Of a DNA stretch of 34,515 nucleotides, positions 9,521-33,915 are shown one piece after another. This stretch comes from an uncultured Actinomycetes bacterium (GTDB taxonomy: Bacteria; Actinomycetota; Acidimicrobiia; Acidimicrobiales; Microtrichaceae). Made by a program: the position numbers and the translations under genes. The stretch is taken from the NCBI GenBank assembly GCA_903868545.1, contig CAIPVR010000291.1, forward strand, positions 1 to 34,515. Reading direction: 5' to 3'. The first letter of the stretch is position 1. Every line of letters begins with the position of its first letter. The notes beneath the pieces are model-generated. The model searched no databases. It saw nothing but the letters and a program-made list of their open reading frames with translations, and was not told where the DNA came from.

Positions 9521-12214
9521 GTGAACCACGACGACCGGCCCCGGAGCGCCGCCGAACTGGCGGCATCGCTCCGGGGCCTCGTCGTGGACGCCGTCGGCGA
9601 CCTCGTCCACCACCACGCGCCCGGGTTCGTCCTCCCCCGCACCTGGGGCGGCCACCCGGTGGAGCCCGACGTGGCCGCCGACCTGGCCTTCACCCTCGGC
9701 CACCTCCACGACGGCGGCGTGCGGGAACTCGCCGGCGAACCGCTGCCCCGGGCGCTGCGCACCGTGCTTCGCCGCATCGACGGCCGCCGCACCCACACCT
9801 TCTTCTCCTACCGGGTGGCCGAGACCGTGGCACGGTTCGGCACCTGGGATCACAACGAACTGCTCGACCCGCTCACCGACGAGGAGCGGGCGGGGGTGGC
9901 GGAGGCCTGCGACACCTCCGAGTGGATCCCACTCCTCGACGAGGCGATCCTCCCGCTCAACTACGCCTCGGTGCTGGCGCGCTGCGAGGCGGCCCGGTCC
10001 GCGCTGGGCCTCCCCGTCGGGTCGGGCGTGGTGGACGACCTCGTCGCCCGGGCCCGCGCCGTGCTGGCTGCGAACCCCGCCCGGTTCCTCGACGACTCCA
10101 ACCACGGCGTGGGCCGCTACGACATCTACACCGCCGACGTGTGGCTGTTCACCGAGACGCTGGCCGACCAGCTCGAGCCACTGTGGTCGGAGGGGTTCGC
10201 CACCGCGGTCGACCTCGTGGAGGCCACGCTCGCCGACGACGGCACCGCCGTGTCGTGGGGCCGTTCCACCGGGATCCTCGGGGCGGCGCTCACCGTCGAA
10301 CTCGCCGCCGCGGCGCTCGCCCGGGGCGTGGGCGACGACCCCGGGCGCTGGCTCGCCCGCGGGATCCGTGCCGCCGGCGGGCTGCCGTCGTGGTTCACCG
10401 ACGGGGTGGTCGACGCCCACCGCCACCGGTCGCCCTACCAGTACCGCGGCCCGTTCCGGCGTCTCCAGCTCACCCTCGACGTGCTCGGAAAGCTCGCCTG
10501 GGCCGCCAACGAACTCGACCGCGTGCCCGACGGTGGTCCCGCCCCGGCGGCCGACCACGAACTCGACACGCCGCTCGACCGCCTCGTCACGTTCGAGGCC
10601 GACGGCACGGCCGGCGTGTGGGCGCACCGCGGACCCGGGGGCGCCACGGTGGTTCCGTTCGTGGGGGCCACCCGGTCGGACTACCTGGCCGCGCCGCGGG
10701 CACCGGGTCGCTTCGAGGTGCCCGTCGACTCCGAGCTCGCCTGCTGGGTGCCGACGGCCTGGGTCGGTGACCGGCGGATGGTCCCGTCGGGTCGTCCGGA
10801 CTCGGTGCATCACTCCACCGGGGCCGTGACCGCCACCTGGGACGGCCTGCGGTCGGGCGCCGAGCTCGACCCCCGACCCGCGGACGCCGACGTGCCCGGC
10901 ACCGTGACCGGCACCTGGACCGCCACCGCCCGCGGCCTGGAGGTCCGCTGGGACCTGGACCTCGCACCCGCGGCCGACCACCCGCCACGGGGCCTCACCT
11001 ACCTGGTGCCCGAGCGGGCCGACCGGCCGCTGCGGGTGCAGTGGCGGGTACGGGGGGCCACCGCCACCACGGACCGGGTGCTGGTGGACGGCATGGCCGA
11101 GTGGCGTTCGTTCTGGTCCACTGCGTCGCAGGTCCACCAGCTCGACGTGGACCCGGTGGCCCGTCACACCGTGACCGTCACCGTCGAGGCGAAGCTGCGG
11201 GTGGCCTCCAGCGCCCACGGCCACCACTACCACCGGAGCCTCTACGGACCGCTCGCCGACCACGTGTGGGACCGGCCGTCGCCGTGGGGCCCCCACGGCG
11301 ACACGTCCGTGGACCCGTCGGCGGTGGACCTGTTCCACCTGCACTGGCCCGAGTGGGTGGCCTTCGACGACGCGGAGGCCCACCGGGCGGTGATCGACGA
11401 CCTCGCCGACCGCGACGTCCCGGTGGTGTGGACCGCCCACAACCTCACCCCGCACGACCGTCGGCCCGACGTGTACGACCCCATCTACCGCTGGTGGAAC
11501 GACGCCGCCGCGGCCGTGATCCACCACTCGCACGTCGGCCGGGACCGGTTCCTCGCCCGCTACGGGCCCGGTGGCGCGGACACCCGTCACGTGGTCATCC
11601 CCCACGGGCACTTCGGAGGTCTGTGGGCGGGGCACGTGCCGTCGAGGGCGGCCGCTGAGGCGGCGCTCGGACTCCAACCGTGCGGCCTGCGCATCGGGCT
11701 CGTGGGGGCGCCGCGGGTGGACAAGGACGTCGCGGGATTCCTCCGGGCCGTCGCCGGGTCGTCGCGCCACGACCTGCAGGTGGTGTGCTGGTCGCTGCTC
11801 GGCGAGGAGGTGGCGGCGGTGCCCGACGACCCGCGCATCGCGGTGGCCGAGCCGTACGTGATGGTCGACGAGGCCACCTACGCGCTGCGGCTGGCCGCGT
11901 GCGACGCGCTCGCCCTGCCCTTCGACCCGCGGGGCGACATGGCCGCCACCGGCACCGTGTTCGACGCCATCGGCACCGGCCTGCCCGCGCTGTGCAGCAC
12001 CTGGGACTACCTGGCCGAGGTGCTCGGTGACGCCGCACTGGTGGTGGGCGACCACCCCGACGAGGTGGCCGCCGCGCTCGACGCACTCCACGACGAACAC
12101 CTGGAACGGACCCGGCGGGCACTCCTCCTGCGTCGCGACGAACTGACCTGGGACCAGATCGCGGCCCGGACCCTCGCGGTGTTCGAGGACGCCCTCGCCC
12201 GCCGCACCCCCTGA
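9521..12214 (+). CDS. Helical/beta-rich protein fused to a GT-B glycosyltransferase
   Basis: An 897-residue protein with no signal peptide. Residues 1 to about 330 are mostly helical with aromatic-rich loops (NHGVGRYDIYTADVW, AVSWGRSTG, SPYQYRGPFRRLQLTLDVLG), suggestive of an (alpha/alpha) barrel. Residues about 340-590 are beta-rich. This pairing is the layout of heparinase/alginate-lyase-type enzymes, but I cannot name the family. Residues about 600-897 are a GT-B glycosyltransferase: DLFHLHWPEW, VVWTAHNLTPH (as in GumK/GT4-like enzymes), RIGLVGAPRVDKD, and the nucleotide-sugar half with AATGTVFDAIGTGLPAL. GTG start 19 nt after the SHOCT gene. It may build or edit a surface polysaccharide. 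The glycosyltransferase call is firm; the front half is inference. Confidence 0.8.
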   Translation: MNHDDRPRSAAELAASLRGLVVDAVGDLVHHHAPGFVLPRTWGGHPVEPDVAADLAFTLGHLHDGGVRELAGEPLPRALRTVLRRIDGRRTHTFFSYRVAETVARFGTWDHNELLDPLTDEERAGVAEACDTSEWIPLLDEAILPLNYASVLARCEAARSALGLPVGSGVVDDLVARARAVLAANPARFLDDSNHGVGRYDIYTADVWLFTETLADQLEPLWSEGFATAVDLVEATLADDGTAVSWGRSTGILGAALTVELAAAALARGVGDDPGRWLARGIRAAGGLPSWFTDGVVDAHRHRSPYQYRGPFRRLQLTLDVLGKLAWAANELDRVPDGGPAPAADHELDTPLDRLVTFEADGTAGVWAHRGPGGATVVPFVGATRSDYLAAPRAPGRFEVPVDSELACWVPTAWVGDRRMVPSGRPDSVHHSTGAVTATWDGLRSGAELDPRPADADVPGTVTGTWTATARGLEVRWDLDLAPAADHPPRGLTYLVPERADRPLRVQWRVRGATATTDRVLVDGMAEWRSFWSTASQVHQLDVDPVARHTVTVTVEAKLRVASSAHGHHYHRSLYGPLADHVWDRPSPWGPHGDTSVDPSAVDLFHLHWPEWVAFDDAEAHRAVIDDLADRDVPVVWTAHNLTPHDRRPDVYDPIYRWWNDAAAAVIHHSHVGRDRFLARYGPGGADTRHVVIPHGHFGGLWAGHVPSRAAAEAALGLQPCGLRIGLVGAPRVDKDVAGFLRAVAGSSRHDLQVVCWSLLGEEVAAVPDDPRIAVAEPYVMVDEATYALRLAACDALALPFDPRGDMAATGTVFDAIGTGLPALCSTWDYLAEVLGDAALVVGDHPDEVAAALDALHDEHLERTRRALLLRRDELTWDQIAARTLAVFEDALARRTP

Positions 12215-12244
12215 CCCGCCACGAGCACCGGCGGGCTGCGACCC

Positions 12245-13090
12245 CTACCCCGTGGCGTGCGCCCCCGCCACGCCGAGCACGTCCCGCAGCACCGTCACCT
12301 CACCGGCCAGCGCGGCCGGGTCGTCACCGGGGAGGAACTCGACCAGCGCGCCCCGCGGCACTCCCGCCGGGACGGCCCCGCCCGCGGCCACGGCGGCCCG
12401 CACCCGCCGCACCCACCGTCCGCGGGTCCGTGCGAGGGAGTGGCGGGTGCCGTCGGCGTCCCAGTCGTACACGTGCAGGTGCGCGAGCCTCGGTGACAGG
12501 GCCGCCAGGTCGGTCGACTCCCGGGCCGCATCGAGCGGGTCCCAGTACGGGGGCTGCCACGCGGTCAGGCAGGCCGGCGAGCCGACGGCGTCGAGCAGGC
12601 GCACCGTGCCGGCCGCGGTGGCGGTGGGGGTGCCGCCGTGGAACTCGAGCACCAGCAGCAGGCCCCGGGCCGCGGCCGCCGCCGCCACCCGTCGGCCGGC
12701 CGCCGCCACCGCCTCCCAGTCGGCGCCGGTGCCGTCGGGCTCCACGCCCATGCCCGCCCACACCCGCACCCAGCGGGCACCGAGTTCCACGGCGGTGTCG
12801 AGCACGGCGTCGATCCCGTCGGACGGGCCGGTGGCGGTGGTGGCGTCGAGGAACAGGTAGGAGCCGTAGGACAGCACGCCCAGACCCGCCGCCTCGGACA
12901 GCCGCCGGGCCCGGGCCGCCGCCGTCGTGTCACCCGGCGGGACGTGGACGTCGCCGCCCCACTCGAGCACCTCCACCCCTGCGGACGCGGCCAGGCGCAC
13001 CACCTCCGCGGGGTCGAGGGAGCGCAGGGTCACCGTGCACAGCCCGACCCGGAACCCCCCGCCGCCGCCGCCCACCGTGTGGTCCGGCAC
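12245..13090 (-). CDS. Xylose isomerase-like TIM-barrel sugar isomerase/epimerase
   Basis: A 281-residue protein of the AP endonuclease 2/sugar phosphate isomerase superfamily. It follows the TIM-barrel pattern: RVGLCTVTLRSLDPAEVVRLA at strand 1, GVEVLEWGGDVHV, ARWVRVWAG, LLLVLEFHGGTP (metal-ligand E), ARLAHLHVYDWD (H) and GALVEFLPGDD (final E). These enzymes isomerise or epimerise sugars and inositol derivatives using a divalent metal. GTG start 3 nt after the hydroxyacid dehydrogenase, so one operon. The gene ends convergently with the glycosyltransferase fusion. Substrate unknown. Confidence 0.85.
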   Translation of the reverse strand: MPDHTVGGGGGGFRVGLCTVTLRSLDPAEVVRLAASAGVEVLEWGGDVHVPPGDTTAAARARRLSEAAGLGVLSYGSYLFLDATTATGPSDGIDAVLDTAVELGARWVRVWAGMGVEPDGTGADWEAVAAAGRRVAAAAAARGLLLVLEFHGGTPTATAAGTVRLLDAVGSPACLTAWQPPYWDPLDAARESTDLAALSPRLAHLHVYDWDADGTRHSLARTRGRWVRRVRAAVAAGGAVPAGVPRGALVEFLPGDDPAALAGEVTVLRDVLGVAGAHATG

Positions 13091-21860: not shown

Positions 21861-22288
21861 GCGTGCACACCCAGATGGTGGCGCCACAGGGCCAGCAGCG
21901 CCGCCACGAACTCCGGACCGTGCGGCTGCGGGGCCGACGGGACGAGCACCGGGCCCCGACCCACCGCCACGTGGGCCAGTTCGTGCACCACCGTGGCGGC
22001 GTCCCACGAGCCGTCCCTGATCCAGACCGCCGCGGCGGTGCCGTCGGCAGTGACGTGGGCGGCGGAGAAGGTGGCGCCACGGCTCCGGCGGAGCACGTCG
22101 ACCTCGACCGGCGCCGCGGGGAACGTGGCGGCCCACCACGGATCGGCGAGCGCGGTGCGCACGAAGGACTCCACCTCCGCGAAGCGCCGGAAGCGACGGC
22201 CGCCATCGGGCAGGGCCGCGTGCTCGGCGGCGTACACCTGCTGCTGCCACGGGTCCCGGGCCGCGCCGCCGGCCCCGGCACGGGTCAT
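21779..22288 (-). CDS. HELAH metallohydrolase (TIGR04338-like)
   Basis: A 169-residue putative zinc hydrolase. HELAH at 102-106 gives two His ligands and the catalytic Glu. H123 and E126 (PHGPEFVAALLALW) may complete the site. The start (DPWQQQVYAAEHAA) and overall size match the actinobacterial family annotated as TIGR04338 metallohydrolase, from memory. It has no secretion signal, so it is cytoplasmic; the substrate is unknown. Its start overlaps the stop of the DUF2786 gene by 4 nt, which means the two are translated together. The 3' end overlaps the cyclase gene on the other strand by 82 nt. Confidence 0.87.
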   Translation of the reverse strand: MTRAGAGGAARDPWQQQVYAAEHAALPDGGRRFRRFAEVESFVRTALADPWWAATFPAAPVEVDVLRRSRGATFSAAHVTADGTAAAVWIRDGSWDAATVVHELAHVAVGRGPVLVPSAPQPHGPEFVAALLALWRHHLGVHAYGALRSALEDHGVPTQRARRDGAAGR

Positions 22289-23076
22289 CCCGACCCGAGG
22301 CCGCGACGACCGCCCACCGCGTCGCGACCGAGGGACGCCTCCTTGCCGGCCCGGCGGCCCGCCCGGCGGCCCTCGGCGGAGGAGCCCCGGGAGGCCCAGG
22401 CCGAGCGCACCGACGGGTACCGCCGACGGAACTCGTCACGCACCTCGCCCGAGCGCTCGGCGAGCACCAGCGCGACCGACGGACCCCGGCCCGCGTCGGC
22501 GGCGCCGCCCTCCCCGGCCACCGACGAACCGGCGGCACCAGCGGCACCCGCCGCAGCGTCGCGGTCGGCACGGAGCCGGGCCGACACCTCCTCGGCGAAG
22601 CCCATGATGAAGCTGCGGCGCCATCCGGCCGACCCCGACGACGTGAGGCCCTCGGGGCAACGGGCCAGCATCGACGAGGTGAGTTGCACCAGCAGGCTCG
22701 TGACCAGGGTCTCCACCCACCGCAGGTCGCCCGGGAACCCGACCACCGAGATCACCTCGGAACGGTGTCCCGGCCCCGACAGCAGCCGCACCGACTGACA
22801 GCCGTGGGCCACCGCCACTGCGTGCACGAGCACGGCCTTCTGGGCCAGGTACGGGGCGTGGATCACGAGGCGCACCTCGTCGGGCTGGTCCCGCTCGGCC
22901 GATCCGGCCCAGACCAGCGCCTCGTCGATGGCGAAGCGGGCGATCAGCTCGGAGGCCTTCGCGAAGAAGGCCTCCGCCTCCTCCGGGTACTCGCTCGCCT
23001 CCGCCTTGGCCAGCAACGCCCGCACCGTGGCCAGGCGACGGTCGTCGACGGGGTCGGGGCGGGCTCCGGCGGTCAT
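22285..23076 (-). CDS. DUF2786 domain protein
   Basis: A 263-residue protein. Residues about 13-52 (LATVRALLAKAEASEYPEEA, then EAFFAKASELIARFAID) are a DUF2786 domain, which has no assigned biochemical role. The middle (VRLVIHAPYLAQKAVLVHAV, VISVVGFPGDLRWVETLVTS) is a conserved extension of actinobacterial members. Near the C-terminus is RRRYPSVRSAWASRGSSAEG and a basic, low-complexity tail. The start ATG 23076 has GGGAGG about 9 nt upstream. It is the first gene of a two-gene operon with the HELAH hydrolase, a pairing I recall from other actinobacteria. Confidence 0.87.
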   Translation of the reverse strand: MTAGARPDPVDDRRLATVRALLAKAEASEYPEEAEAFFAKASELIARFAIDEALVWAGSAERDQPDEVRLVIHAPYLAQKAVLVHAVAVAHGCQSVRLLSGPGHRSEVISVVGFPGDLRWVETLVTSLLVQLTSSMLARCPEGLTSSGSAGWRRSFIMGFAEEVSARLRADRDAAAGAAGAAGSSVAGEGGAADAGRGPSVALVLAERSGEVRDEFRRRYPSVRSAWASRGSSAEGRRAGRRAGKEASLGRDAVGGRRGLGSG

Positions 23077-23164
23077 GTCCTGCAGCCTCCCACGGCCCAC
23101 CGACAACCGGAACGGGGAGCACACCCCGGTCCCGGGGCCGGTACCGGGTCCACCGTCGGACCGC

Positions 23165-24100
23165 TCAGCGGCCCACCGCCTCGCGCAGCCCGCGCCGGAC
23201 CGTCGGCCGGTCGAAGTGCGCCCAGGCCTCCCGGCAGTGCCCGTGGGCGACCTCGGCGTCGCGGTGGAGCGCGTCGGCCAGCGCCCCGGCGGCCAGCGCC
23301 GCCCGCCCGCCGGTGGCGACGCCCGCCCGTTCGATCATCGAGGCCTGCACGTGGTGGTCCTGCAGACGGCCGAGCGTGTCCTGGAGGTCGGCGAGGCGAC
23401 GCTGCACCGGCCCGAAGGTGCCCTTCGGGTACATCGGCGCCACGGCGTTGACCACGTAGCGGTACCGCTTCAGCGCCTTGCGGAGGTCGTGCCACGCGTT
23501 GCGGTCGTCGGTCGCCATGGCCACCTTCCCGGCGCGCCGCGCCCGCCGGAACGCCCGCCACACGAGGTCGTCGGCCACGCTGCCGGCCGGGCGGGCCGCG
23601 TCCGGGCCCGGTTCCCCGCCGCCCAGCCGGTAGACGTTGCCGAGGGCGCGCCAGCGCCGCACGAGCACCGGGTACCGCTCGCCGTCCAGCGCCGCCAGCA
23701 GCGCGGCGCGGGCGGTCGACCGTTCGGCGTCCAGCGCCGCGTACAGCGGTTCGACGCCGTCGGACAGCTCCGGGCTCGTGCGCGCCACCAGGCCGGGCAG
23801 GTCGGCGCGCAGCACGTCGAGGTCGCGTACCGGCGAGGTGACCCCGGCCATCCAGCGCAGCAGCGCCCCGAGCAACTCGCGCTCCTCCGCCGGGTACACC
23901 CGACGGCCCGCCGCGAGCAGGGAGCGGGCCCGGCGCACCGCCACGCGGGCGTCGTGGAGCTCCTCCGGGTCCTCGTCGGCCCGCACCCCCGGCTCGTGGG
24001 CCAGGAAGGTGGCGAGGTAGCCGTCGAGCACCACGGCCAGGACGCGGCCGGCGGGCTGGTCCCGGTCACCGGGGCCCAGCCGCCAGCCGTCAGCGCTCAT
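23165..24100 (-). CDS. CHAD domain protein
   Basis: A 311-residue protein made almost entirely of a CHAD domain, an all-helical fold with conserved His, Arg and Lys that binds inorganic polyphosphate. Two halves carry the signature: ELHDARVAVRRARSLL (H49, R52, R56, R57) and AWHDLRKALKRYRYVVNAV. No CYTH triphosphatase domain is attached, so it is probably a binding or targeting protein and not an enzyme. The gene ends 88 nt before the DUF2786 gene and lies downstream of the proton pyrophosphatase on the same strand (61 nt gap), so expression may be shared. Confidence 0.9.
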   Translation of the reverse strand: MSADGWRLGPGDRDQPAGRVLAVVLDGYLATFLAHEPGVRADEDPEELHDARVAVRRARSLLAAGRRVYPAEERELLGALLRWMAGVTSPVRDLDVLRADLPGLVARTSPELSDGVEPLYAALDAERSTARAALLAALDGERYPVLVRRWRALGNVYRLGGGEPGPDAARPAGSVADDLVWRAFRRARRAGKVAMATDDRNAWHDLRKALKRYRYVVNAVAPMYPKGTFGPVQRRLADLQDTLGRLQDHHVQASMIERAGVATGGRAALAAGALADALHRDAEVAHGHCREAWAHFDRPTVRRGLREAVGR

Positions 24101-24161: not shown

Positions 24162-26492
24162 TCAGTCGCCGAACGAGGTGCTCTGCTGCTTGGAGAACAC
24201 CACGGCGCCGAGCACCACGGCGAGCGCCACGCCCGCGATCGCGAACCGGAGGCCGTTGCCGTCGGACTCCATGTTGAGGATCACCGGCAGCACGAGGAGC
24301 GACACCAGGTTCATCACCTTGATGAGCGGGTTGATGGCAGGGCCGGCGGTGTCCTTGAAGGGATCGCCGACGGTGTCGCCGATGACGACGGCCGTGTGGA
24401 CGTCGGAGCCCTTACCCCCGAGGTTGCCCTCCTCGATGTACTTCTTGCCGTTGTCCCAGGCGCCGCCTGCGTTCGACAGGAAGTTCGCCATGAGCGCACC
24501 CACGATGATGGTGGCGGCGAGGAAGCCGCCCAGCGCGTAGGCGCCGAGCCCGAAACCGATCACGATCGGCATGAGCACCGCCAGGAGGGCGGGAGTGGTG
24601 AGCTCCCGGAGGGCGGCACCGGTGCAGATGTCGATGACGGGGCCGTAGTCGGGCTTCTCGGTGTAGTCCATGATCCCGGGCTTCTCCCGGAACTGGCGCC
24701 GCACCTCCTGGACCACGGTGCCGGCGGTGCGACCCACGGCGAGGATGGCCAGCGACGAGAACAGGAACACCACCGTGGCGCCCACCAGGCCACCGGCGAA
24801 GGTCTTGGGATCCGCGATGTTGATCGCCACGTCGGCGAACTTCTGGGCCACGTCGCCGGGGCCCGGGAGGTCCGCGGCGATCGTCTCGCGGAAGGAGGCG
24901 AACAGCGCCACCGCCGCGATCACCGCGGAACCGATGGCGAAGCCCTTGGTGACGGCCTTGGTGGTGTTGCCCACCGTGTCGAGGCCGTCGAGGATCTTCT
25001 CGGTCTCGCCCTCCAACTCACCCGACATCTCGGCGATGCCCTGCGCGTTGTCGGCGATCGGCCCGAAGGTGTCCTCGGCGACCACGATGCCGGTGGTCGA
25101 CAGCATGCCGATGCCGGTGAGCGCCACCAGGTAGAAGGCGAAGAGGATCTCGCCGCCGCCGAGGCCGAGCCCCACCAGGATCGCCACCGCGATGGCCACC
25201 ACGGCCCACACGGCGGACTCCATGCCGGAGGAGATGCCGGACAGCACCACCGTGGCCGGCCCGGTGCGGCCCGACTCGGCGATGTCCTTCACCGGCTTGA
25301 ACTGGCTGGAGGTGAAGTACTGGGTGATGCGGCTGGCCACCTGGCCGAGGATCACGCCCACCACGATGGCGAGGAACATGCGCAGGCCCACGCCGCTGAG
25401 TGGCGTCTCCCCCGCACGCACCACCCGGATCGCCGGGTTGCCCACGTAGCCGAAGGCGAGGACCGCGGCGCCCACGAGGGCGATCACCGACGCGATGTTG
25501 AGGCCCCGGTTGATCGGCTTGAGGGCGTCGGTCTCGCCGGAGCGGGCCTTCACGAGGAAGATCGACACCATCGAGGCCACGAGGCCGACGGCCATCATGG
25601 CCAGCGGGAAGATCAGGCCCTTGGCGCGCTCGCCGGGGAGGATCCCGATGGACTGGAACGCGGTGACGCCCAGGATGATGTTGGCCACCAGCACCACGCC
25701 GAAGGACTCGAACAGGTCGGACGCCATGCCGGCGCAGTCGCCCACGTTGTCACCCACGTTGTCGGCGATGGTCGCCGGGTTGCGGGGGTCGTCCTCGGGG
25801 ATGCCGGCCTCCACCTTGCCCACGAGGTCGGCACCCACGTCGGCGGCCTTGGTGAAGATGCCGCCGCCCACGCGGAGGAACAGGGCCAGGAGTGAGCCAC
25901 CGAAGCCGAAGCCCACGAGGATCGCCGAGGCCGTGTTCTGGAAGATCATCACGATGGCGGTGGCGCCCAGGAGTCCGAGCCCGGCGGTGAACAGGCCCAC
26001 CGTCCCGCCGGTGCGGAACGCCACCTGCAGCGCGGCGTCCATGCTCCCTGAGCGGGCCGCCGCCGCCGTGCGCACGTTGGCCTTGGTGGCGAGCCACATG
26101 CCGAGGAAGCCGATGAAGCCGGAGAAGAGCGCCCCGAGGAGGAACGCGAGCATCCGGTAGAGACCCGACTGCCAGCGGTCGAGGCCCACCTCGGTGCCAG
26201 GCTTCAGGATCTCGGTGGAGGTGGCGAACACGATCGCGGCCAGTGGCACGACGATGATCAGGATGGTGCGGAACTGGCGCTTGATGTACGCCATGGCACC
26301 CTCGTGCACGGCGTCCGCGATCTCGTTCATCTTCTCGGTGCCGGCGTCCTTGGACAGGACACCGCGCATCATGGCGAAGCCCACCAGCAGGGCGACGATG
26401 GCCACACCGGCGGCGAACAGCAGCCAGAACCACTCCTGGCCGTCGAGTCGGAACACCTGGTAGCCGCCCTCGGCGGCGAGGATCTGCGTCAT
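24162..26492 (-). CDS. hppA: Membrane-bound proton-pumping pyrophosphatase (K+-independent)
   Basis: A 776-residue integral membrane pump with about 16 hydrophobic helices. It hydrolyses cytoplasmic pyrophosphate and moves H+ out of the cell. The pyrophosphate site is intact: ADVGADLVGKVE, then NVGDNVGDCAGMASDLFES at about residues 216-265. The K+-sensing motif reads GNTTKAVTKG (about 505-515): Lys replaces Ala and Thr replaces Gly/Ala, the pattern of K+-independent H+ pumps. The start is ATG 26492, with a purine-rich AGAGAGA upstream. A two-box promoter at 26607-26578 gives a leader of about 80 nt containing a hairpin. Confidence 0.97.
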   Translation of the reverse strand: MTQILAAEGGYQVFRLDGQEWFWLLFAAGVAIVALLVGFAMMRGVLSKDAGTEKMNEIADAVHEGAMAYIKRQFRTILIIVVPLAAIVFATSTEILKPGTEVGLDRWQSGLYRMLAFLLGALFSGFIGFLGMWLATKANVRTAAAARSGSMDAALQVAFRTGGTVGLFTAGLGLLGATAIVMIFQNTASAILVGFGFGGSLLALFLRVGGGIFTKAADVGADLVGKVEAGIPEDDPRNPATIADNVGDNVGDCAGMASDLFESFGVVLVANIILGVTAFQSIGILPGERAKGLIFPLAMMAVGLVASMVSIFLVKARSGETDALKPINRGLNIASVIALVGAAVLAFGYVGNPAIRVVRAGETPLSGVGLRMFLAIVVGVILGQVASRITQYFTSSQFKPVKDIAESGRTGPATVVLSGISSGMESAVWAVVAIAVAILVGLGLGGGEILFAFYLVALTGIGMLSTTGIVVAEDTFGPIADNAQGIAEMSGELEGETEKILDGLDTVGNTTKAVTKGFAIGSAVIAAVALFASFRETIAADLPGPGDVAQKFADVAINIADPKTFAGGLVGATVVFLFSSLAILAVGRTAGTVVQEVRRQFREKPGIMDYTEKPDYGPVIDICTGAALRELTTPALLAVLMPIVIGFGLGAYALGGFLAATIIVGALMANFLSNAGGAWDNGKKYIEEGNLGGKGSDVHTAVVIGDTVGDPFKDTAGPAINPLIKVMNLVSLLVLPVILNMESDGNGLRFAIAGVALAVVLGAVVFSKQQSTSFGD

Positions 26493-26657: not shown

Positions 26658-27302
26658 TCACGCCCCCTGCGACGAACGCTCCCGGCGGCTGCGCAGCACC
26701 TCGATGACGATCGGCACCAGCGACAGTGCCACCACACAGAGGATGGCGATCTCGAGGTTCTCGCGGATGAAGCTCACGTTGCCCAGGAAGTACCCGAGCA
26801 ACGTGACCCCCACGCCCCAGAGCAGCCCGCCGACCACGTTGTAGCGGACGAACGTGCCGTAGTGCATGCGACCGACCCCGGCCACGATCGGGCAGAACGT
26901 GCGCACGATCGGGACGAAGCGGGCCAGCACGATCGCCTTCGGGCCGTGACGGTCGAAGAAGGCCTGGGCCTTCTCCACGTTCTCGTGCTTGAACAGTCGC
27001 GAATCGGGGCGCTTGAAGATCGACGGCCCCACCTTCCGGCCGAACAGGTAGCCCACCTGGTCGCCCGCCACGGCGGCGATGAACACGCCGACGAGCACCA
27101 CCCAGATGTTGAACTGGATGTCGTTGCGACCCAGCGTCCCCGCCGAGGCCATGCCGGCGATGAACAGCAGCGAATCACCCGGCAGGAAGAAGCCGATCAG
27201 CAGGCCGGATTCGGCGAAGATGATCGCGAAGAGCAGCAGGTAGCCGCCCTTCTCGATCAGGGCCTGCGGGTCGAGCAGGCCGCCCGCGGCCAGGAGGTGC
27301 AT
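26658..27302 (-). CDS. DedA/VTT-family membrane protein
   Basis: A 214-residue DedA protein. The family includes lipid scramblases/flippases that recycle undecaprenyl phosphate or phosphatidylethanolamine. Signatures are GGYLLLFAIIFAESGLLIGF (a membrane segment), LPGDSLLFIAG, GDQVGYLFGRKVGPSIF and the conserved VLARFVPIVRTFCPIVAGVG with the essential Arg. C-terminal helices end in a basic tail (RSRRERSSQG). ATG 27302 is directly preceded by GTG 27305. With a -10 box TACCCT 8 nt before the GTG, a leaderless start at GTG is possible and would add one residue. UPF0182 lies 49 nt upstream on the same strand. Confidence 0.93.
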   Translation of the reverse strand: MHLLAAGGLLDPQALIEKGGYLLLFAIIFAESGLLIGFFLPGDSLLFIAGMASAGTLGRNDIQFNIWVVLVGVFIAAVAGDQVGYLFGRKVGPSIFKRPDSRLFKHENVEKAQAFFDRHGPKAIVLARFVPIVRTFCPIVAGVGRMHYGTFVRYNVVGGLLWGVGVTLLGYFLGNVSFIRENLEIAILCVVALSLVPIVIEVLRSRRERSSQGA

Positions 27303-27351: not shown

Positions 27352-30300
27352 TCAGGTCCGGCCCACCGGCGCCACCGTGGTGGGGGTGGCGGGGGTCGTG
27401 GTGGTCGTCGTGGGAGCGCCCGCTGCCGGGGCGGGCTGCGGCGCCGTCGTCGGGGCCGACGGAGCCTCGGCCAGCGCCGCGGCGGCTCGGGCCACCAGTG
27501 CCCGGGCTGCGGCCACGTCGGCCTGGTACCCGCCCAGGTCGCCGTTGCGCAGCTTCTGGTCGGCCCGGGAGAAGGTCTCGTCGGCCTGGGCCAGGAGGGC
27601 GGTGGGATCACCGCCCTGCTCACCGGGGACGGTCGTGGTGGTCGTGCCCGCCGTTCCGCCGCCGTTGCCGGCGCCCCCGGCGTCGGACGGCGCGCCGGTG
27701 GCCTTGTCGGGGTCGCCGTCGAGCAGATCGGCCAGCGCGGCCGGCAGGGAGTCGCCGAAGCCCACGGAGTCACCCGAGGTCACCACCACCCGCTTCAGCG
27801 AGAAGCGGCCGCTCTGCTCCTCCTTCGCGTAGACGGGACGCAGGTAGAGCAGCGAGTCGCGGAACGGGAGGATCAGTAGGTTCCCGAACTGCACCCGGGA
27901 GCCGTTGGACCCCACCTGGGTCTGGTACACCGAGACCGGCTGGTAGGTCACCATCTTCTGGTTGGCCCGCAGGGGGCCGTCCACCCGTGTGGAGCGCTCG
28001 ACCTTGCCGTCCTCGCCCCGGCTCGTCATCACGATCTGGCGGAGCTTGCCGTAGGAGCCGGGGTCGTTCGACGCCACCATGATGGCGGTCAGGTTCCGGG
28101 CCGAGTCGTCGCTGGACGCGAGCACGAACGGGCGCGTGAGCACGAACTCGGGCTCGCTGTCGGGCGAGAGCTGCATGAGCTGGTAGTAGGGCTCGATGCG
28201 GTCGAGCTGTGAGTTCGGCTGGACCAGTGCCGAGGTGTCGGCCGCCGCCGCGCCGGCCGAGGTGTTCGGCGGCTGCTGGGCCACGTCCCACCGGTCGCTG
28301 TTGTTGAAGAACGACGACGGGTCGCCCTGGTGGTAGCGGCCCCACACCGCCGTCTGGGTCTTGAACAGCAGCTCGGGGTAGCGGAAGTGCCGCGACAGCG
28401 ACTCGGGGATGTCGGTGGTGTAGACGCCCGGGAACGCCTTGGCCCAGGCCCGGATGATCGGGTCCTGCGACCCGTAGAGCGTGTCCACGAGGTACAGGTC
28501 GACGGTGCCGTCGTAGGCGTCGACCACCGCCTTCACACTGTTGCGGAGGTAGTTGAACGACCCGGTGGCGCCGGTGGTGACGGCTGCGACGTCCAGTGAC
28601 TCGGCGTACGGGAAGTTGGCCGACGCGGTGTAGCCGTCGATGACGTACTTCACCCGGCCGTCGACGAGCACGCCGTACGGGTCCTCGTCGAGGATCAGGT
28701 AGGGGGCGATCGTCTGCACCCGCTCCTTGATGTCGCGGACGTAGATGACCTTCGACTTCTTCGTGAGGTTGCCCGAGATCATGGGTTCGATCTCGCCGAA
28801 GCGCAGCGCGAACGCCGCCTTGCGCGACAGGGTGTCGATCGGCACCCCGGCCTTGCCCTCGTACTGGGTGGTGACCTGGTCGGTGCTGAGCTCGGTCTGG
28901 TCGGTCCCGACGATGCTGTACCCGTCCATCCCCTCGCCGTGGTACAGCTCCGGGCGCTCGAGCGGCGGCAGACCCGTCACCTTCACCGGGATGTTCGACA
29001 CGAGGAAGTTCGGGTCGCCCCGGCCGTCGACCGAGTTCGCGGGCGCCACCGCGGCGGCGTACCCGTGGGTGAACACCAGGTGCAGCTTCTCCCATGTGGG
29101 CGCCGCGATGCCCTGGGTGTTGAGCTCCCGGGTGGACACGATGGTGGGCTCGCGCACCGGGGCCGCGCCGTCGCGCTGCACCACGTAGCGGTCCACGTCC
29201 ACGTCACGGAAGGCGTAGAACTCCCGGCCGAACTCGAGGTCCTCGATCGTGGGGCGGATCACCGACGGGTCAAGCAGACGTGCGTTGGTGAGGTTCGACT
29301 GCTGCGCCGCGAGCTTCTCGGAGGTGAGGTCCGGCGAGTAGAAGAAATCCGTCTGCTGCACGTCGTCGAGCCCGAGGGCCTCCCGGGTGGCGGTGATGTT
29401 CCGCTCGATGAACGGCTTCTCCTTGGCCAGCTCCGCCGGACCCACCTGGAAGCGCTGCACGAACGCCGGATAGGCGCTGCCCACCACGAGCGCCACCAGC
29501 AACCAGAGCGACACGACGATCGCCGGCAGCGCCCACCCCTTGCGGCGGATGTTCACCAGCAGCAGCACGGCGGCGAACAGGGAGATCAGGATGAGAAGGT
29601 CGATGGCGGGGAGCCGGGCGTTGACCGCCGTGTAGCCCGCCCCGTCGAAGGACCGGCCGGGGGCGTAGAGCAGTTCGTAGCGCTGCAGCCAGTAGTCGGC
29701 AGCCTTGACGAGCGCGGCCAGCGCCAACAGCACCGACAGGTGGGCCTTGGCGTTCGGGGTGACCCGCTCCCCCAACGGCTGCACCCGGATCGCGCCGTTC
29801 AGGTAGTGCACCACCGCCACCACGATGGCGGTCACGACCAAGAACCCGAACAGCCAGTCCACCACCTGGGTCAGGAACGGCAACCGGAACACGAAGAACC
29901 CGATGTCCTGGCCGAACTGGGGGTCCTTCGCCCCGAAGTTCCCGCCGTAGCGGAACAGCAGCCACTCCCGCCACTGCCCTGCGGCACCGAGGCCCGGCAC
30001 GGCGGCGATCAGCAGCGCGACCACCACCTCCATCACCCGCTGGCGGCCGCTGACCAGCTCCCGGTAGCGGACGAGCAGCTCGTCGTCGTGGCCCGCGACC
30101 GGACGGAACCGCGGTGCGATCCGGTCGGCCACCAGCAGGTTGAGCCACAGGATCACGAAGAACACCAGGGTGGCACCCACCCCGAGCGTGACCTTGGCGG
30201 AAAGGAGCTTGCGCCAGACCGCAGCCAGGTCGAGGACGTCGAACCACAGGAAGTCGGTCCAGAAGGTGGCGACGGCCCGGACCGACAGGAGCAGGACCAC

Positions 30301-30396
30301 CACCACCACGGCGATCACGGCGACGATCGTCCGGCCCCGATTCGGATGTGCCGAGGAACGGTCCTTCCGACGTTCCCGCCGCGACGGGCGGGGCAT
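27352..30396 (-). CDS. UPF0182 family membrane protein
   Basis: A 1014-residue protein of the UPF0182 (COG1615) family, whose function is unknown. The N-terminal 310 residues hold about seven membrane helices, the first at about 22-45. The large C-terminal part is probably outside the cell, with family motifs DFLWFDVL near the start, LTSEKLAAQQSNLTNARLLD, RDGAAPVREPTIVSTRELNT and LYLVDTLYGSQDPIIRAWAK. The last 140 residues are a Thr/Pro/Ala/Gly-rich tail, longer than usual. The start ATG 30396 is chosen by homology; TACCCC lies 6 nt before it. M. tuberculosis Rv3193c is a homologue and also sits beside a PDZ protease. Confidence 0.95.
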   Translation of the reverse strand: MPRPSRRERRKDRSSAHPNRGRTIVAVIAVVVVVLLLSVRAVATFWTDFLWFDVLDLAAVWRKLLSAKVTLGVGATLVFFVILWLNLLVADRIAPRFRPVAGHDDELLVRYRELVSGRQRVMEVVVALLIAAVPGLGAAGQWREWLLFRYGGNFGAKDPQFGQDIGFFVFRLPFLTQVVDWLFGFLVVTAIVVAVVHYLNGAIRVQPLGERVTPNAKAHLSVLLALAALVKAADYWLQRYELLYAPGRSFDGAGYTAVNARLPAIDLLILISLFAAVLLLVNIRRKGWALPAIVVSLWLLVALVVGSAYPAFVQRFQVGPAELAKEKPFIERNITATREALGLDDVQQTDFFYSPDLTSEKLAAQQSNLTNARLLDPSVIRPTIEDLEFGREFYAFRDVDVDRYVVQRDGAAPVREPTIVSTRELNTQGIAAPTWEKLHLVFTHGYAAAVAPANSVDGRGDPNFLVSNIPVKVTGLPPLERPELYHGEGMDGYSIVGTDQTELSTDQVTTQYEGKAGVPIDTLSRKAAFALRFGEIEPMISGNLTKKSKVIYVRDIKERVQTIAPYLILDEDPYGVLVDGRVKYVIDGYTASANFPYAESLDVAAVTTGATGSFNYLRNSVKAVVDAYDGTVDLYLVDTLYGSQDPIIRAWAKAFPGVYTTDIPESLSRHFRYPELLFKTQTAVWGRYHQGDPSSFFNNSDRWDVAQQPPNTSAGAAAADTSALVQPNSQLDRIEPYYQLMQLSPDSEPEFVLTRPFVLASSDDSARNLTAIMVASNDPGSYGKLRQIVMTSRGEDGKVERSTRVDGPLRANQKMVTYQPVSVYQTQVGSNGSRVQFGNLLILPFRDSLLYLRPVYAKEEQSGRFSLKRVVVTSGDSVGFGDSLPAALADLLDGDPDKATGAPSDAGGAGNGGGTAGTTTTTVPGEQGGDPTALLAQADETFSRADQKLRNGDLGGYQADVAAARALVARAAAALAEAPSAPTTAPQPAPAAGAPTTTTTTPATPTTVAPVGRT

Positions 30397-30424: not shown

Positions 30425-32599
30425 TTACCGAGGGGCAGGTGCCAGGAGGCATCGGCACCCGGGGTGGGCCGGCGGCACCACGTCGCCGGTCGGGAACTCC
30501 TCACCCACCGGCACGGGACCGGCGAGCGCGTTGTCCTCCGCGTCGCTGCAGGGGAGGCCGCCGTTGTCGGCCACCCAGCACCACGACGTCCCCGCCGGCG
30601 CGGCCCGGCGGGCGCCCTCGGCGAACCCGGCGGTGGCGAGGTCGCCCGCCAGCTGGGGGACGGACCCCGAGCGGAACTCCCGGTACGCCGCGCGCACCGG
30701 GTCGGCGAGCTCGGCGACCTCCAACCCGGCCTCGTCGGCATCGTCGAGAGCGCGCTGCAGGTGGGCACGGCGGCGATCGAGGAGCTCCGACACCCTGGCG
30801 GTCAGGACCTCCGCGACCGCTGCGTCGTCGGACGGGCCGGCCTCGGCGCCGGTCAGTTCCGCCCAGAGCTCGGTCCCGGCGGCCACGGCGCCGGCGAACT
30901 CGTCCGCGAGCGCGTCGACGAACCGCTCGACGTCGGGACCCGCCGGCAGGAGCTGGGCGAGATCGACCCGACCCTTGCGGTGGCGGCGCAGGCGGTCGAG
31001 CACCTCGTTCTGCTCGTCGGACACCAGCCGCTTGAGCGTCCGGGCCAACCCTTTCTCGGCCGGCTCCAGCAGCTGGTCGCGACGGTCGAGCAGGCGCGAG
31101 GTGGGGTCGGGTTCCGTCAGCGCCACCACGACGGGCTCCTCGTCGGGTCGGGCCGCGGTGTCCGCCTCCATGACGGCGACGCCGGCTGCTGCCGCAGTCA
31201 CGGCAGCGGCCGTGGCGTCGTCGGCGGCCGGCTGGGCCGGACCGGTGGTCGATCCGCCGTCGCCCTCGTCCTCGCCCCCGTCACCGCCGCCACGCTCGGC
31301 GCGGATCCGCTCGAACAGGTCGTGCACCGTGGCGCCGGGCGACAGCTCGTCCCCGGCCGCCGGTGCCGACTCCTCGCCGGGCGGCGGTGTGGTCAGTCCC
31401 ACCACGTTGTCGGCGGTCCCGGCGGGCTCGTCACCGGAGTCGGCCGCGCCGTCCTCCCCGGACGCCTCGTCCCCGGTCGGTTCCTCGGCGATCGGTACCT
31501 CGGCGATCGGTACCTCGGCGATCGACTCCACGGCGATCGCCTCCACGGCCGCGGCGTCCAGGTCTGCGCCCGCGGCCTCGGTACCACCGTCCTCGGCGGC
31601 GTCCTCCGGCTCCTCCGGAGCGGACAGCTCCCCCGTACGGAGGCCCGACTCCAGCTCGGCCACCACCTGGTCGACGTCGTCCAGGACCGTCGCCGCAGCG
31701 GCCTCACCGGCCAGTTCGGCCGCCCGGTCGCTCCCGGCGAGCTCCTCGACCGCGGCGTCGAGCGAGACGCCCACCTCCGCGAGCGAGGCCATGATCCGGT
31801 TGCGGGTGGCCCGGGCCGCCTCCGTCTGCTGTCGGGCGGTGCGACGGCGCTCGGCGAGGTCGCGCAGGATCCGCTCCCGCACGCGCCGGGCCTCACCCAC
31901 CATCTCGCGGCCTTCCTCCCGGGCCCGCTCGCGCTCTGCCTCACCGGCCTCCGCCGCCTCGGCCCGGATGCGCTCGCCCTCCGTCCGGGCCGCGGCCATC
32001 TCGGCCTCCGCGGTGCCCCGGATCGCGGCGGCCGCCACCTCGGCCTCCGCCGTGCGCTCGTCGAGCACCGTGGTGGCCGCCTCGAGGAGCCGGTCGTGCT
32101 CCGACTGCGCCTCGTTCCGCAGGCGGGTCGACTCCTCCGCGGCCTCGGAGCGGAGGCGTTCCGCCTCGTGCCGGGCCTCCTCGCGGAGCGTGGCGGCCTC
32201 GGCCCGGAGGGCCTCCGACTCCTGCTCGGCCGCCGCGCGCGCCGCCGACACGGCCTCGTCGGCCTCGGCCACTGCGCGCGCCGCGTCGGCCTCGGCGTTC
32301 GAGCGGATCTCGGCCGCGGCGGCACGCGCCGCGGCCACGATGCGGGCGGTCTCCGACCCGAGCACCGCGGTGATCCGTTCCTCGTCGGCGTCATGCGACG
32401 CGGAGAGCTCCGACTCGAGCTCGTCGAGCCGTGAGGTCAGGCGTTCGTCACGCTCCTGCCAGGCCCGCAACGCATCCGCGGCCCGCCCCAGCAGCTTGCG
32501 GACCTCCGCCGGCTCGAACCCCTTGCGGGACCTGGTGAAGCTGGCGCCGGACAGCGCGGACGGGTCCAGCGCGGGAGGTTCCGGGACGGAGTCGCTCAT
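30425..32599 (-). CDS. DivIVA-like coiled-coil protein with MuF-like C-terminus
   Basis: 724 residues. The N-terminus (FTRSRKGFEPAEVRKLLGRA, about 21-40) resembles the DivIVA membrane-curvature domain. Residues about 45-290 are an Ala/Glu/Arg-rich coiled coil. An acidic, low-complexity linker (about 320-490) contains IAEVP repeats. Residues about 500-670 are helical. The C-terminus has a Cys/His pattern (W673, C674, C684, H712, C715, C717) ending PPAHPGCRC, as in the phage Mu gpF (MuF, PF04233) minor head protein. No portal, capsid or other phage gene is present, so the domain seems to be used by the host. Leaderless: TAGCAT 6 nt before the ATG. UPF0182 starts 28 nt downstream, so they may be co-transcribed. 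Confidence 0.82.
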   Translation of the reverse strand: MSDSVPEPPALDPSALSGASFTRSRKGFEPAEVRKLLGRAADALRAWQERDERLTSRLDELESELSASHDADEERITAVLGSETARIVAAARAAAAEIRSNAEADAARAVAEADEAVSAARAAAEQESEALRAEAATLREEARHEAERLRSEAAEESTRLRNEAQSEHDRLLEAATTVLDERTAEAEVAAAAIRGTAEAEMAAARTEGERIRAEAAEAGEAERERAREEGREMVGEARRVRERILRDLAERRRTARQQTEAARATRNRIMASLAEVGVSLDAAVEELAGSDRAAELAGEAAAATVLDDVDQVVAELESGLRTGELSAPEEPEDAAEDGGTEAAGADLDAAAVEAIAVESIAEVPIAEVPIAEEPTGDEASGEDGAADSGDEPAGTADNVVGLTTPPPGEESAPAAGDELSPGATVHDLFERIRAERGGGDGGEDEGDGGSTTGPAQPAADDATAAAVTAAAAGVAVMEADTAARPDEEPVVVALTEPDPTSRLLDRRDQLLEPAEKGLARTLKRLVSDEQNEVLDRLRRHRKGRVDLAQLLPAGPDVERFVDALADEFAGAVAAGTELWAELTGAEAGPSDDAAVAEVLTARVSELLDRRRAHLQRALDDADEAGLEVAELADPVRAAYREFRSGSVPQLAGDLATAGFAEGARRAAPAGTSWCWVADNGGLPCSDAEDNALAGPVPVGEEFPTGDVVPPAHPGCRCLLAPAPR
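31479..31538 (-). repeat. Four 15-bp repeats in the linker of the DivIVA-MuF gene
   Basis: The unit GGTACCTCGGCGATC (plus-strand reading) occurs exactly at 31494-31508 and 31509-31523. One-base and three-base variants flank it at 31479-31493 and 31524-31538. They encode IAE[V/E]P-type pentapeptides in the acidic linker, and repeat number could vary. Confidence 0.85.
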
Positions 32600-32697: not shown

Positions 32698-33915
32698 TCA
32701 GCCGGGCACGCCCGCCGGCGGCGCGGCGGCTGCGGCGGCCTGGGCGGATGCCACCCGGCGGGCCTCCGCCTCCACGTCGCCCTTCGGGTCGAGGATCCGG
32801 ATCGCATCGTCGAGCGTCGCCACCGGACGGAGCTCGAGGTCGTCACCCGCCTCCCGTTCGATCGCCCGGCGCTCGGCGGCCGGGGTGGAGGCCGGGTAGA
32901 GGAAGAGCTTCACGCCGTTGCGCTTCACCGCCGCGACCTTCTGCTCGATCCCGCCGATCGGTCCCACGGTGCCGTCCGGCAGGATCTCGCCGGTCACGGC
33001 GACCCGCCGCCCGTCGGTCAGGGATCCCGGGGTGAGCCGGTCGATGACCGCGAGCGCCCAGGCCAGCCCGGCGGACGGCCCGGTCACCTCGCCGGAATCG
33101 ATGGTCACCTGCACGGGCGAATCGAGTCGCGGGTCGTCCGGGTCCACCGACACACCGAGCACCGGCCGCTCCGGCTCGTCGGGGGCCGCCCCGAGCGTGA
33201 TGGTCACGGTCTCGGTGGCCGCGCCCCGACGGACCCCGACCGTCGTCGGCTCGCCGGGGCGGCGGCCGTCGAGCGCCCGACCGATGTCGGAGGGCAGGGT
33301 CACGGGGCGACCGTCGACCGAGGTGATCACGTCGCCGGGCCGGAGCAGGCCGCTCGAGGGGCTGTCCTCCGACAGGGCGAGGACACGGGCCCCGTTCGCG
33401 GTGAACTCCGCCGGGTAGCCGAGGCGGTTGAGCGCCACCTTGGTGGCCACCAGCTTGGAGAGGTCCATCCGCTGCTGGTTCACCTGCTGGCTCTTCCCCC
33501 GGCCCTCCTTGCCGTACACCTCCTCCTCCGAGCGGACCTCGATCGCGTCGTCGACCGCCCCCCGGACGAGGGTGGCCACCGTGGCCCGGTCGATGAAGAC
33601 GGTGGTGAACATCACCGCACCCTTGGTGCGGAACGTCGGGGCACCCTTCACACTCACCAGGGGTTCCGACGCCCGGACCGAGCCGGGCTGGAGCAGGTAG
33701 TAGGGGGTGGGGATGAACAGGAGTCCCGCCAGGACGGCCAGCCCGACCAGGACCACCAGCAGCCAGGCCAGCCGACGTCGCGGTCGACGCGGTGCGGACC
33801 GGGTCGCGTCGGCACCGGGCCCGGGGCCCGCCGGACCGGGCCCGGGAGCGGAGGTGGGAGCGTCGGCGCCGGGATCGGCCGGGACGCCGGAGGTCGGTAG
33901 GCTGCTGTCCGTCAT
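32698..33915 (-). CDS. Membrane-anchored PDZ/LonC serine protease (YlbL-like)
   Basis: A 405-residue protease. A Pro/Gly/Ala-rich cytoplasmic start is followed by basic residues (RRPRRR) and one membrane helix at about 49-69. A PDZ domain is around 175-245 (ARVLALSEDSPSSGLLRPGD, VITSVDGRPV). The Lon-type catalytic domain has the Ser-Lys dyad S281 (GEVTGPSAGLAWAL) and K326 (IGGIEQKVAAVKRNG). No ATPase domain, as in B. subtilis YlbL and M. tuberculosis Rv3194c. It probably cleaves envelope proteins outside the membrane. ATG 33915 is the only ATG or GTG before the membrane helix, and it overlaps the start of the divergent gene. Confidence 0.93.
   Translation of the reverse strand: MTDSSLPTSGVPADPGADAPTSAPGPGPAGPGPGADATRSAPRRPRRRLAWLLVVLVGLAVLAGLLFIPTPYYLLQPGSVRASEPLVSVKGAPTFRTKGAVMFTTVFIDRATVATLVRGAVDDAIEVRSEEEVYGKEGRGKSQQVNQQRMDLSKLVATKVALNRLGYPAEFTANGARVLALSEDSPSSGLLRPGDVITSVDGRPVTLPSDIGRALDGRRPGEPTTVGVRRGAATETVTITLGAAPDEPERPVLGVSVDPDDPRLDSPVQVTIDSGEVTGPSAGLAWALAVIDRLTPGSLTDGRRVAVTGEILPDGTVGPIGGIEQKVAAVKRNGVKLFLYPASTPAAERRAIEREAGDDLELRPVATLDDAIRILDPKGDVEAEARRVASAQAAAAAAPPAGVPG

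Follow-up and report, generated by a model that had tools for sequence, protein, structure and literature searches.

MuF minor head proteins of phages (PF04233, TIGR01641; phrog_2662) include SPP1 gp7 and Mu gpF, and the binding of gp7 to the portal oligomer is what directs it to the procapsid (PMC6316719). The function of the MuF domain has been stated as unknown (PMC5576092). The domain is also found in the MuF polymorphic toxins (PMC5576092), which are phage-borne multidomain proteins with a toxin lying C-terminal to MuF. Actinobacterial scaffolds of the DivIVA, Wag31, SepIVA and Scy type have a head motif of the R-G-Y-D-x-x-E-V type and then a coiled coil, with RGYDxxEVD given as the consensus of the DivIVA-like domain in the available part of a survey from 2023 (PMC9858780), a part that makes no mention of a fusion of such a scaffold to MuF. 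DivIVA scaffolds and MuF domains are each known, but we found no published description of a DivIVA-MuF fusion in the open-licence literature.

The gene described here lies between a PDZ/Lon protease and a UPF0182 membrane protein, the two families that also make up the mycobacterial Rv3194c-Rv3193c pair, which we take to be adjacent, with Rv3193c presumably the UPF0182 protein; we know of no DivIVA-MuF gene between the two. The Bacillus protein YlbL is presumably a PDZ protease related to the one found here. In Bacillus, YlbL assists in removing a division inhibitor (PMC6051672). Rv3193c comes out underrepresented when a divisome mutant is examined by Tn-seq, and counts as an interactor of a divisome gene in such data (PMC8093794); by analogy both sets of data point to division or the envelope.

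The window, that is the whole stretch of 34,515 nucleotides that was analysed, carries the following features at this locus, all on the reverse strand.

30425..32599 (-), DivIVA-MuF fusion protein of 724 aa, ATG start, frame intact
32513..32599 (-), DivIVA head, residues 1-29; PF05103 match, modelled as short strands then helix
31739..32512 (-), coiled coil, residues 30-287; AlphaFold helix, conserved alignment columns (18 sequences)
31328..31738 (-), acidic disordered linker, residues 288-424; pLDDT <50 over most, net charge -34
31289..31327 (-), conserved linear motif VHDLFERIRAERG, residues 425-437; orthologue pattern, helix with raised pLDDT
31106..31288 (-), second acidic linker, residues 438-498; pLDDT <50 over most
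30425..31105 (-), MuF-homologous domain, residues 499-724 (226 residues); profile, AlphaFold, Foldseek and tree
30449..30583 (-), Trp/Cys/His end, residues 673-717 (W675, C684, H712, C715, C717); orthologue alignment
27352..30396 (-), UPF0182 membrane protein directly downstream of the scaffold; PF03699, E 5.9e-231
32698..33915 (-), PDZ/Lon (S16) protease, upstream, from a candidate start, the ORF being open to 34221; PF13180 and PF05362

The 724-aa protein shares its head motif and coiled coil with the DivIVA-type scaffolds, but has in addition an acidic linker, an LFARLR motif and MuF. Like the polymorphic toxins it has MuF within a multidomain protein, yet MuF forms the extreme C-terminal end and the gene belongs to the bacterial core; the protein stops 7 residues past the last MuF cysteine, and a MuF polymorphic toxin was excluded as no toxin domain lies C-terminal to MuF.

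The DivIVA-like N-terminus, the coiled coil of about 250 residues and the acidic linker had all been claimed in an earlier note on this DNA, and all are recovered here. PF05103 (DivIVA) matches residues 19-126 with 28.4 bits against a gathering cut-off of 28 (32.2 bits in a separate scan), and DivIVA is the sole family that Pfam assigns to the whole protein. AlphaFold, run on the full length with 18 sequences, gives a small head with short strands and then a near-continuous helix that spans residues 30-287. Most of 289-424 and of 438-494 is disordered, with a short helix at 425-437 between the two, and a confidently folded domain lies at 499-721. The FTRSRKGFEPAEV motif of the head extends into the coiled coil; the head motif reads RKGFEPAEV in the window copy and RGFDxxEV or RGYDxxEV in many orthologues, and head and coil fit the DivIVA-like domain as PMC9858780 defines it. 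The Wag31 equivalog profile NF050102 gave 20.7 bits where 260 are required, and a further, canonical-looking DivIVA in the same genome adjoins a SepF-like gene.

The C-terminal 226-residue domain is a homologue of the phage MuF minor head proteins over its full length. Compared on its own with the PHROGs it matched phrog_2662 at E 8.7e-16, with domain residues 12-222 on profile positions 485-707; the family consists of portal proteins (portal-MuF) and the match covers their C-terminal part. The same profile is matched by 34 of 35 orthologous C-terminal domains, TIGR01641 by 28 of the 35 (best E 2.7e-6, the window copy being below cut-off) and PF04233 by 17 (best E 3.5e-5, with no match for the window copy). 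The whole window protein as query gave weak phage matches (phrog_2841 E 0.68; TIGR01641 E 0.072), the homology having emerged with the isolated domain and the orthologue alignment and not in the whole-protein scans of PHROGs and NCBIfam. AlphaFold models the isolated domain with a pLDDT of 95.9 and pTM of 0.91 as four long helices and a small beta/Cys-His end, for which Foldseek finds 83 matches at E <=1e-3 in a viral library (best 6.7e-7, TM 0.78). Those matches that bear a name are portal, minor capsid and head-morphogenesis proteins and other phage proteins of this kind, some of them fused to toxin-like domains, so that the MuF-like C-terminus that had been claimed, with structure prediction set as the refutation test, is upheld by profile and model alike.

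Among solved structures no convincing relative of the domain was found by sequence or by Foldseek (best E 0.19), and the best VIA-align result, Z 8.7 to a designed helical bundle, is within the range usual for helical models; that no relative was found does not establish a new fold. Searching in reverse, a profile of 62 host MuF domains finds phage proteins with E down to 1.4e-21, scores that are partly built in as the viral contigs were picked by motifs including PP[AG]HxGCRC, whereas the phrog_2662 and Foldseek results are independent of that selection. One of the viral contigs, L173, reads as phage, with terminase-like and portal-like genes and then a 260-aa MuF protein downstream whose end, W..GDERVCSTCEDNAGEGEVPINQGFSSGDLYPPAHPGCRC, resembles the end in the window, W..DNGGLPCSDAEDNALAGPVPVGEEFPTGDVVPPAHPGCRC.

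Host copies are like the phage MuF proteins in the whole domain and its predicted fold, and the two have alike a W, C-x2-C, F-x2-G and the PPAHPGCRC end, although in the phage set the conservation of this end is partly due to motif selection. At the level of single columns what is common to both is the W, the first Cys, PP.H and C-x-C. The host copies are unlike their phage counterparts in being carried on a chromosomal DivIVA scaffold, in frequently lacking the second of the two C-x2-C cysteines (about one in three has Ala or Gly there, the window copy Ala), in some copies being without the Cys/His end, and in the absence of the phage R..LIA.TE helix. The Thr and the Glu of this helix are each found in 97% of 35 phage copies, with mainly Asp and Leu/Ala at these columns in the host copies, which share signatures of their own, D-N-x-L-x-G and F-P-[TS]-G. 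Within 63 aligned host copies, an alignment that excludes those without the Cys/His end, W is found in 90%, C684 in 89%, H712 in 87% and C715 and C717 in 100%. The earlier note had listed W673, C674, C684, H712, C715 and C717, and all are present, but W673 and C674 are not conserved in orthologues and the conserved tryptophan is W675. Conservation of the Cys/His pattern, the want of which the note had named as a refutation, holds for most orthologues; several lineages have lost this end whilst retaining the helical part.

The DivIVA-MuF gene is a vertically inherited core gene of the Acidimicrobiia and some relatives. Its architecture is present in hundreds of species, and together with the near-complete matching of orthologous C-termini by phrog_2662 this puts the pattern far above chance. 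The whole protein is matched in 56 of 61 relatives, and across the class the domain is found in 202 of 249 Acidimicrobiia genomes that are at least 95% complete, almost always once, a figure that falls to about 200 without two doubtful matches (G568 and G452) that are not located at the UPF0182 locus. Phylum-wide, 58 of 396 genomes match, of which two resemble chance and were set aside: G435, with glycosyltransferase-like matches, and G081, with a 308-aa ORF outside the syntenic setting. Matches outside the Acidimicrobiia are confined to a few actinobacterial classes, one of which has the domain in 10 of 34 genomes and 8 of 21 genera. Searching the genomes of 84,980 species gave 305 confirmed relatives, the best 80 of which, chosen on the MuF part alone, served as an independent set; their records are titled Acidimicrobiia, Acidimicrobiales, Microthrixaceae, Ilumatobacteraceae or Actinomycetota, with a few MAGs seemingly mistitled. 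Four such MAG records (L096, L099, L144 and L156) are titled Bifidobacterium breve and have Acidimicrobiia-type loci; the titles appear wrong. Aquihabitans sp. G128 and IMCC26207 are relatives in which the locus is present.

A DivIVA head starts all 69 complete ORFs within these best 80 of the 305 loci. In the tree all host MuF domains group together, separate from the phage MuFs (99/94; 98% of bootstrap trees); the tree is unrooted and its phage set was picked by motif, so that phages are poorly sampled. Distances between MuF domains track those between the UPF0182 proteins (Mantel r 0.61, permutation maximum 0.19), and the domain is under purifying selection, with a dN/dS of 0.017-0.03 among three close relatives and of 0.10 in another pair, in which the linker has 0.35, out-of-frame pairs having been excluded. 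The survey of actinobacterial genomes and neighbouring genes that had been proposed as a check finds both the fusion and the gene order conserved throughout the Acidimicrobiia.

The neighbours claimed for the gene have Pfam matches on both sides and lie on its strand, with a candidate start of UPF0182 28 bp past the scaffold stop. Among the best 80 of the 305 loci UPF0182 is directly downstream in all 74 that are testable, and the PDZ/Lon protease at most 6 kb upstream in 63 of 65. Of 20 further ORFs of the window that were compared with Pfam, about half matched something and none matched a phage family, in agreement with the claim that no phage gene is nearby, and no head-packaging gene module was found by Pfam around the gene within the window. 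Some genomes, Acidimicrobiia included, carry UPF0182 without the DivIVA-MuF gene, thus UPF0182 does not need the scaffold.

Further genes of these loci can be listed. After UPF0182 the window has a VTT (DedA-type) protein (26658-27302, (-)) and a proton-pumping pyrophosphatase (24162-26492, (-)), and the pyrophosphatase, often with a VTT gene, also comes after UPF0182 in many of the nearest relatives. A CHAD-domain protein lies beside a DUF2786 protein at 23165-24100 (-) and 22285-23124 (-). In L034 a PAS/HAMP histidine kinase (10367-13021, (-)) stands between the protease and the DivIVA-MuF gene, and ORFs like it occur in 19 other loci, which may merely reflect common kinase domains.

Within the linker there is a motif that did not figure in the earlier note. 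Its family form is V-x-D-L-F-A-R-[IL]-R (LFARLR-like), or more broadly V-x-[DE]-[LI]-F-[AE]-[RK]-[IL]-R, and the strict form is present in 45 of 65 distant orthologues with looser forms in more. V425 and F429 do not vary across the 18 aligned sequences, and the rest of the linker does not align. The motif looks like a binding peptide. It is kept in copies that are without MuF, as DVDAIFARLRSQ in L284 and IAALFARIRADS in L068.

The family contains what amounts to a natural deletion series. Eight loci (L238, L245, L295, L298, L301-L303 and L070) have copies ending just before the Trp/Cys/His end with the helical part kept, which is therefore more widely retained than the Cys/His end. Three have the DivIVA-like part with its motif but without MuF, adjoining UPF0182:

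L284, 8514-9623, DivIVA-like copy without MuF, motif kept
L293, 7318-8388, DivIVA-like copy without MuF, motif kept
L068, 7474-8451, DivIVA-like copy without MuF, motif kept

In L285-L287, L289, L291, L292, L294 and L296 no DivIVA gene was found and PDZ/Lon is beside UPF0182. A sister group, from a related class, has short DivIVA-only genes without MuF directly upstream of UPF0182:

L323, 10603-11280, DivIVA-only protein of 225 aa
L326, 3559-3987, DivIVA-only protein of 142 aa

As the DivIVA-like part is found beside UPF0182 even without MuF, the link between DivIVA and UPF0182 is more general than MuF, and as the Cys/His end has been lost in several lineages and the whole of MuF in others, MuF is not indispensable.

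That this is a domesticated MuF-DivIVA fusion we regard as highly probable. The balance tips modestly towards a fuller explanation, an ancient domestication in which a second and non-canonical DivIVA scaffold that works with UPF0182 gained a phage MuF head domain as its C-terminal binding module; the DivIVA Pfam score of the window copy, just above cut-off, counts against it. A MuF minor-head domain would have been fused once, long ago, to the C-terminus of a UPF0182-associated DivIVA-type scaffold, passing from phage to host, and the fusion would then have become a vertically inherited core gene. By analogy with the DivIVA family the head and coil may oligomerise and bind curved membrane, which would place the protein at the poles or septum, and whether it is a curved-membrane scaffold for UPF0182 we judge evenly poised. 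The disordered linker would display the LFARLR motif with the MuF domain at its end, the two recruiting partners, of which UPF0182, as the constant neighbour of the scaffold, is the likeliest client or co-worker, with the PDZ/Lon protease next; adjacency of genes does not prove physical contact between scaffold and UPF0182. The head role would be gone and MuF probably be a protein-binding module, for which SPP1 gp7 offers a precedent by analogy as a docking module, although that MuF recruits protein rather than binding DNA is put forward tentatively, at somewhat less than an even chance.

DivIVA proteins anchor chromosomes in other Gram-positives, through RacA or ParB, and the MuF domain might likewise bind DNA and so act as a tether between the chromosome and the curved membrane of a pole or septum. 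The first MuF helix is arginine-rich, with R524 and R538 nearly invariant, and the title of a study cited by PMC5576092 terms SPP1 gp7 DNA-binding; against this the domain is acidic (its net charge is -13 in the window copy and has a median of -9 over 63 host copies) and, as weak evidence, no known DNA-binding fold is related to it among solved structures, leaving such a tether unlikely. It is less probable still that a membrane-held MuF senses phages, binding their portals or head proteins as they enter or assemble and blocking head assembly or DNA entry as a decoy defence. The portal binding of SPP1 gp7 (PMC6316719) and the retained overall fold would suit such a role, but typical defence genes are patchy whereas this one is core, mostly single-copy, syntenic and under strong purifying selection, with no phage gene matched nearby and with the R..LIA.TE of nearly all phage copies missing.

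A reversed direction, in which MuF was an old cellular domain later acquired by phages, is allowed by an unrooted tree with host and phage copies each on one side of a branch. MuF genes are however common in tailed phages beside portal genes (PMC5576092), and the domain occurs in many PHROG families whilst the host copies are limited to a few actinobacterial classes, which makes this reading slightly more improbable again. A chance Cys/His pattern or a decaying prophage gene joined to DivIVA has next to nothing in its favour beyond the weak scores of the whole window protein scanned alone, and is excluded by the fusion in 69 of 69 complete ORFs from the best 80 of the 305 loci, the intact frames, the dN/dS, the host clade, the synteny and the presence in about 200 of 249 genomes of the class.

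Phage parts that have been domesticated mostly serve as weapons, transfer devices or defence. Under the preferred reading of an ancient domestication, a domain associated with capsids is here part of a division-type scaffold that is mostly single-copy and inherited vertically, across a class of bacteria common in soil and freshwater. It is possible, though we would put it below an even chance, that a virus head domain is now a core, class-wide part of the polarity or division apparatus, in which a portal-docking module lets a DivIVA scaffold hold a UPF0182 complex. The system gives a handle on what MuF does alone and on UPF0182, a membrane protein that is widespread but has no known function, and the natural series of full domain, no Cys/His end, no MuF and no gene makes it directly testable. 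Together this suggests that part of a virus has been turned into part of the cell's own envelope machinery.
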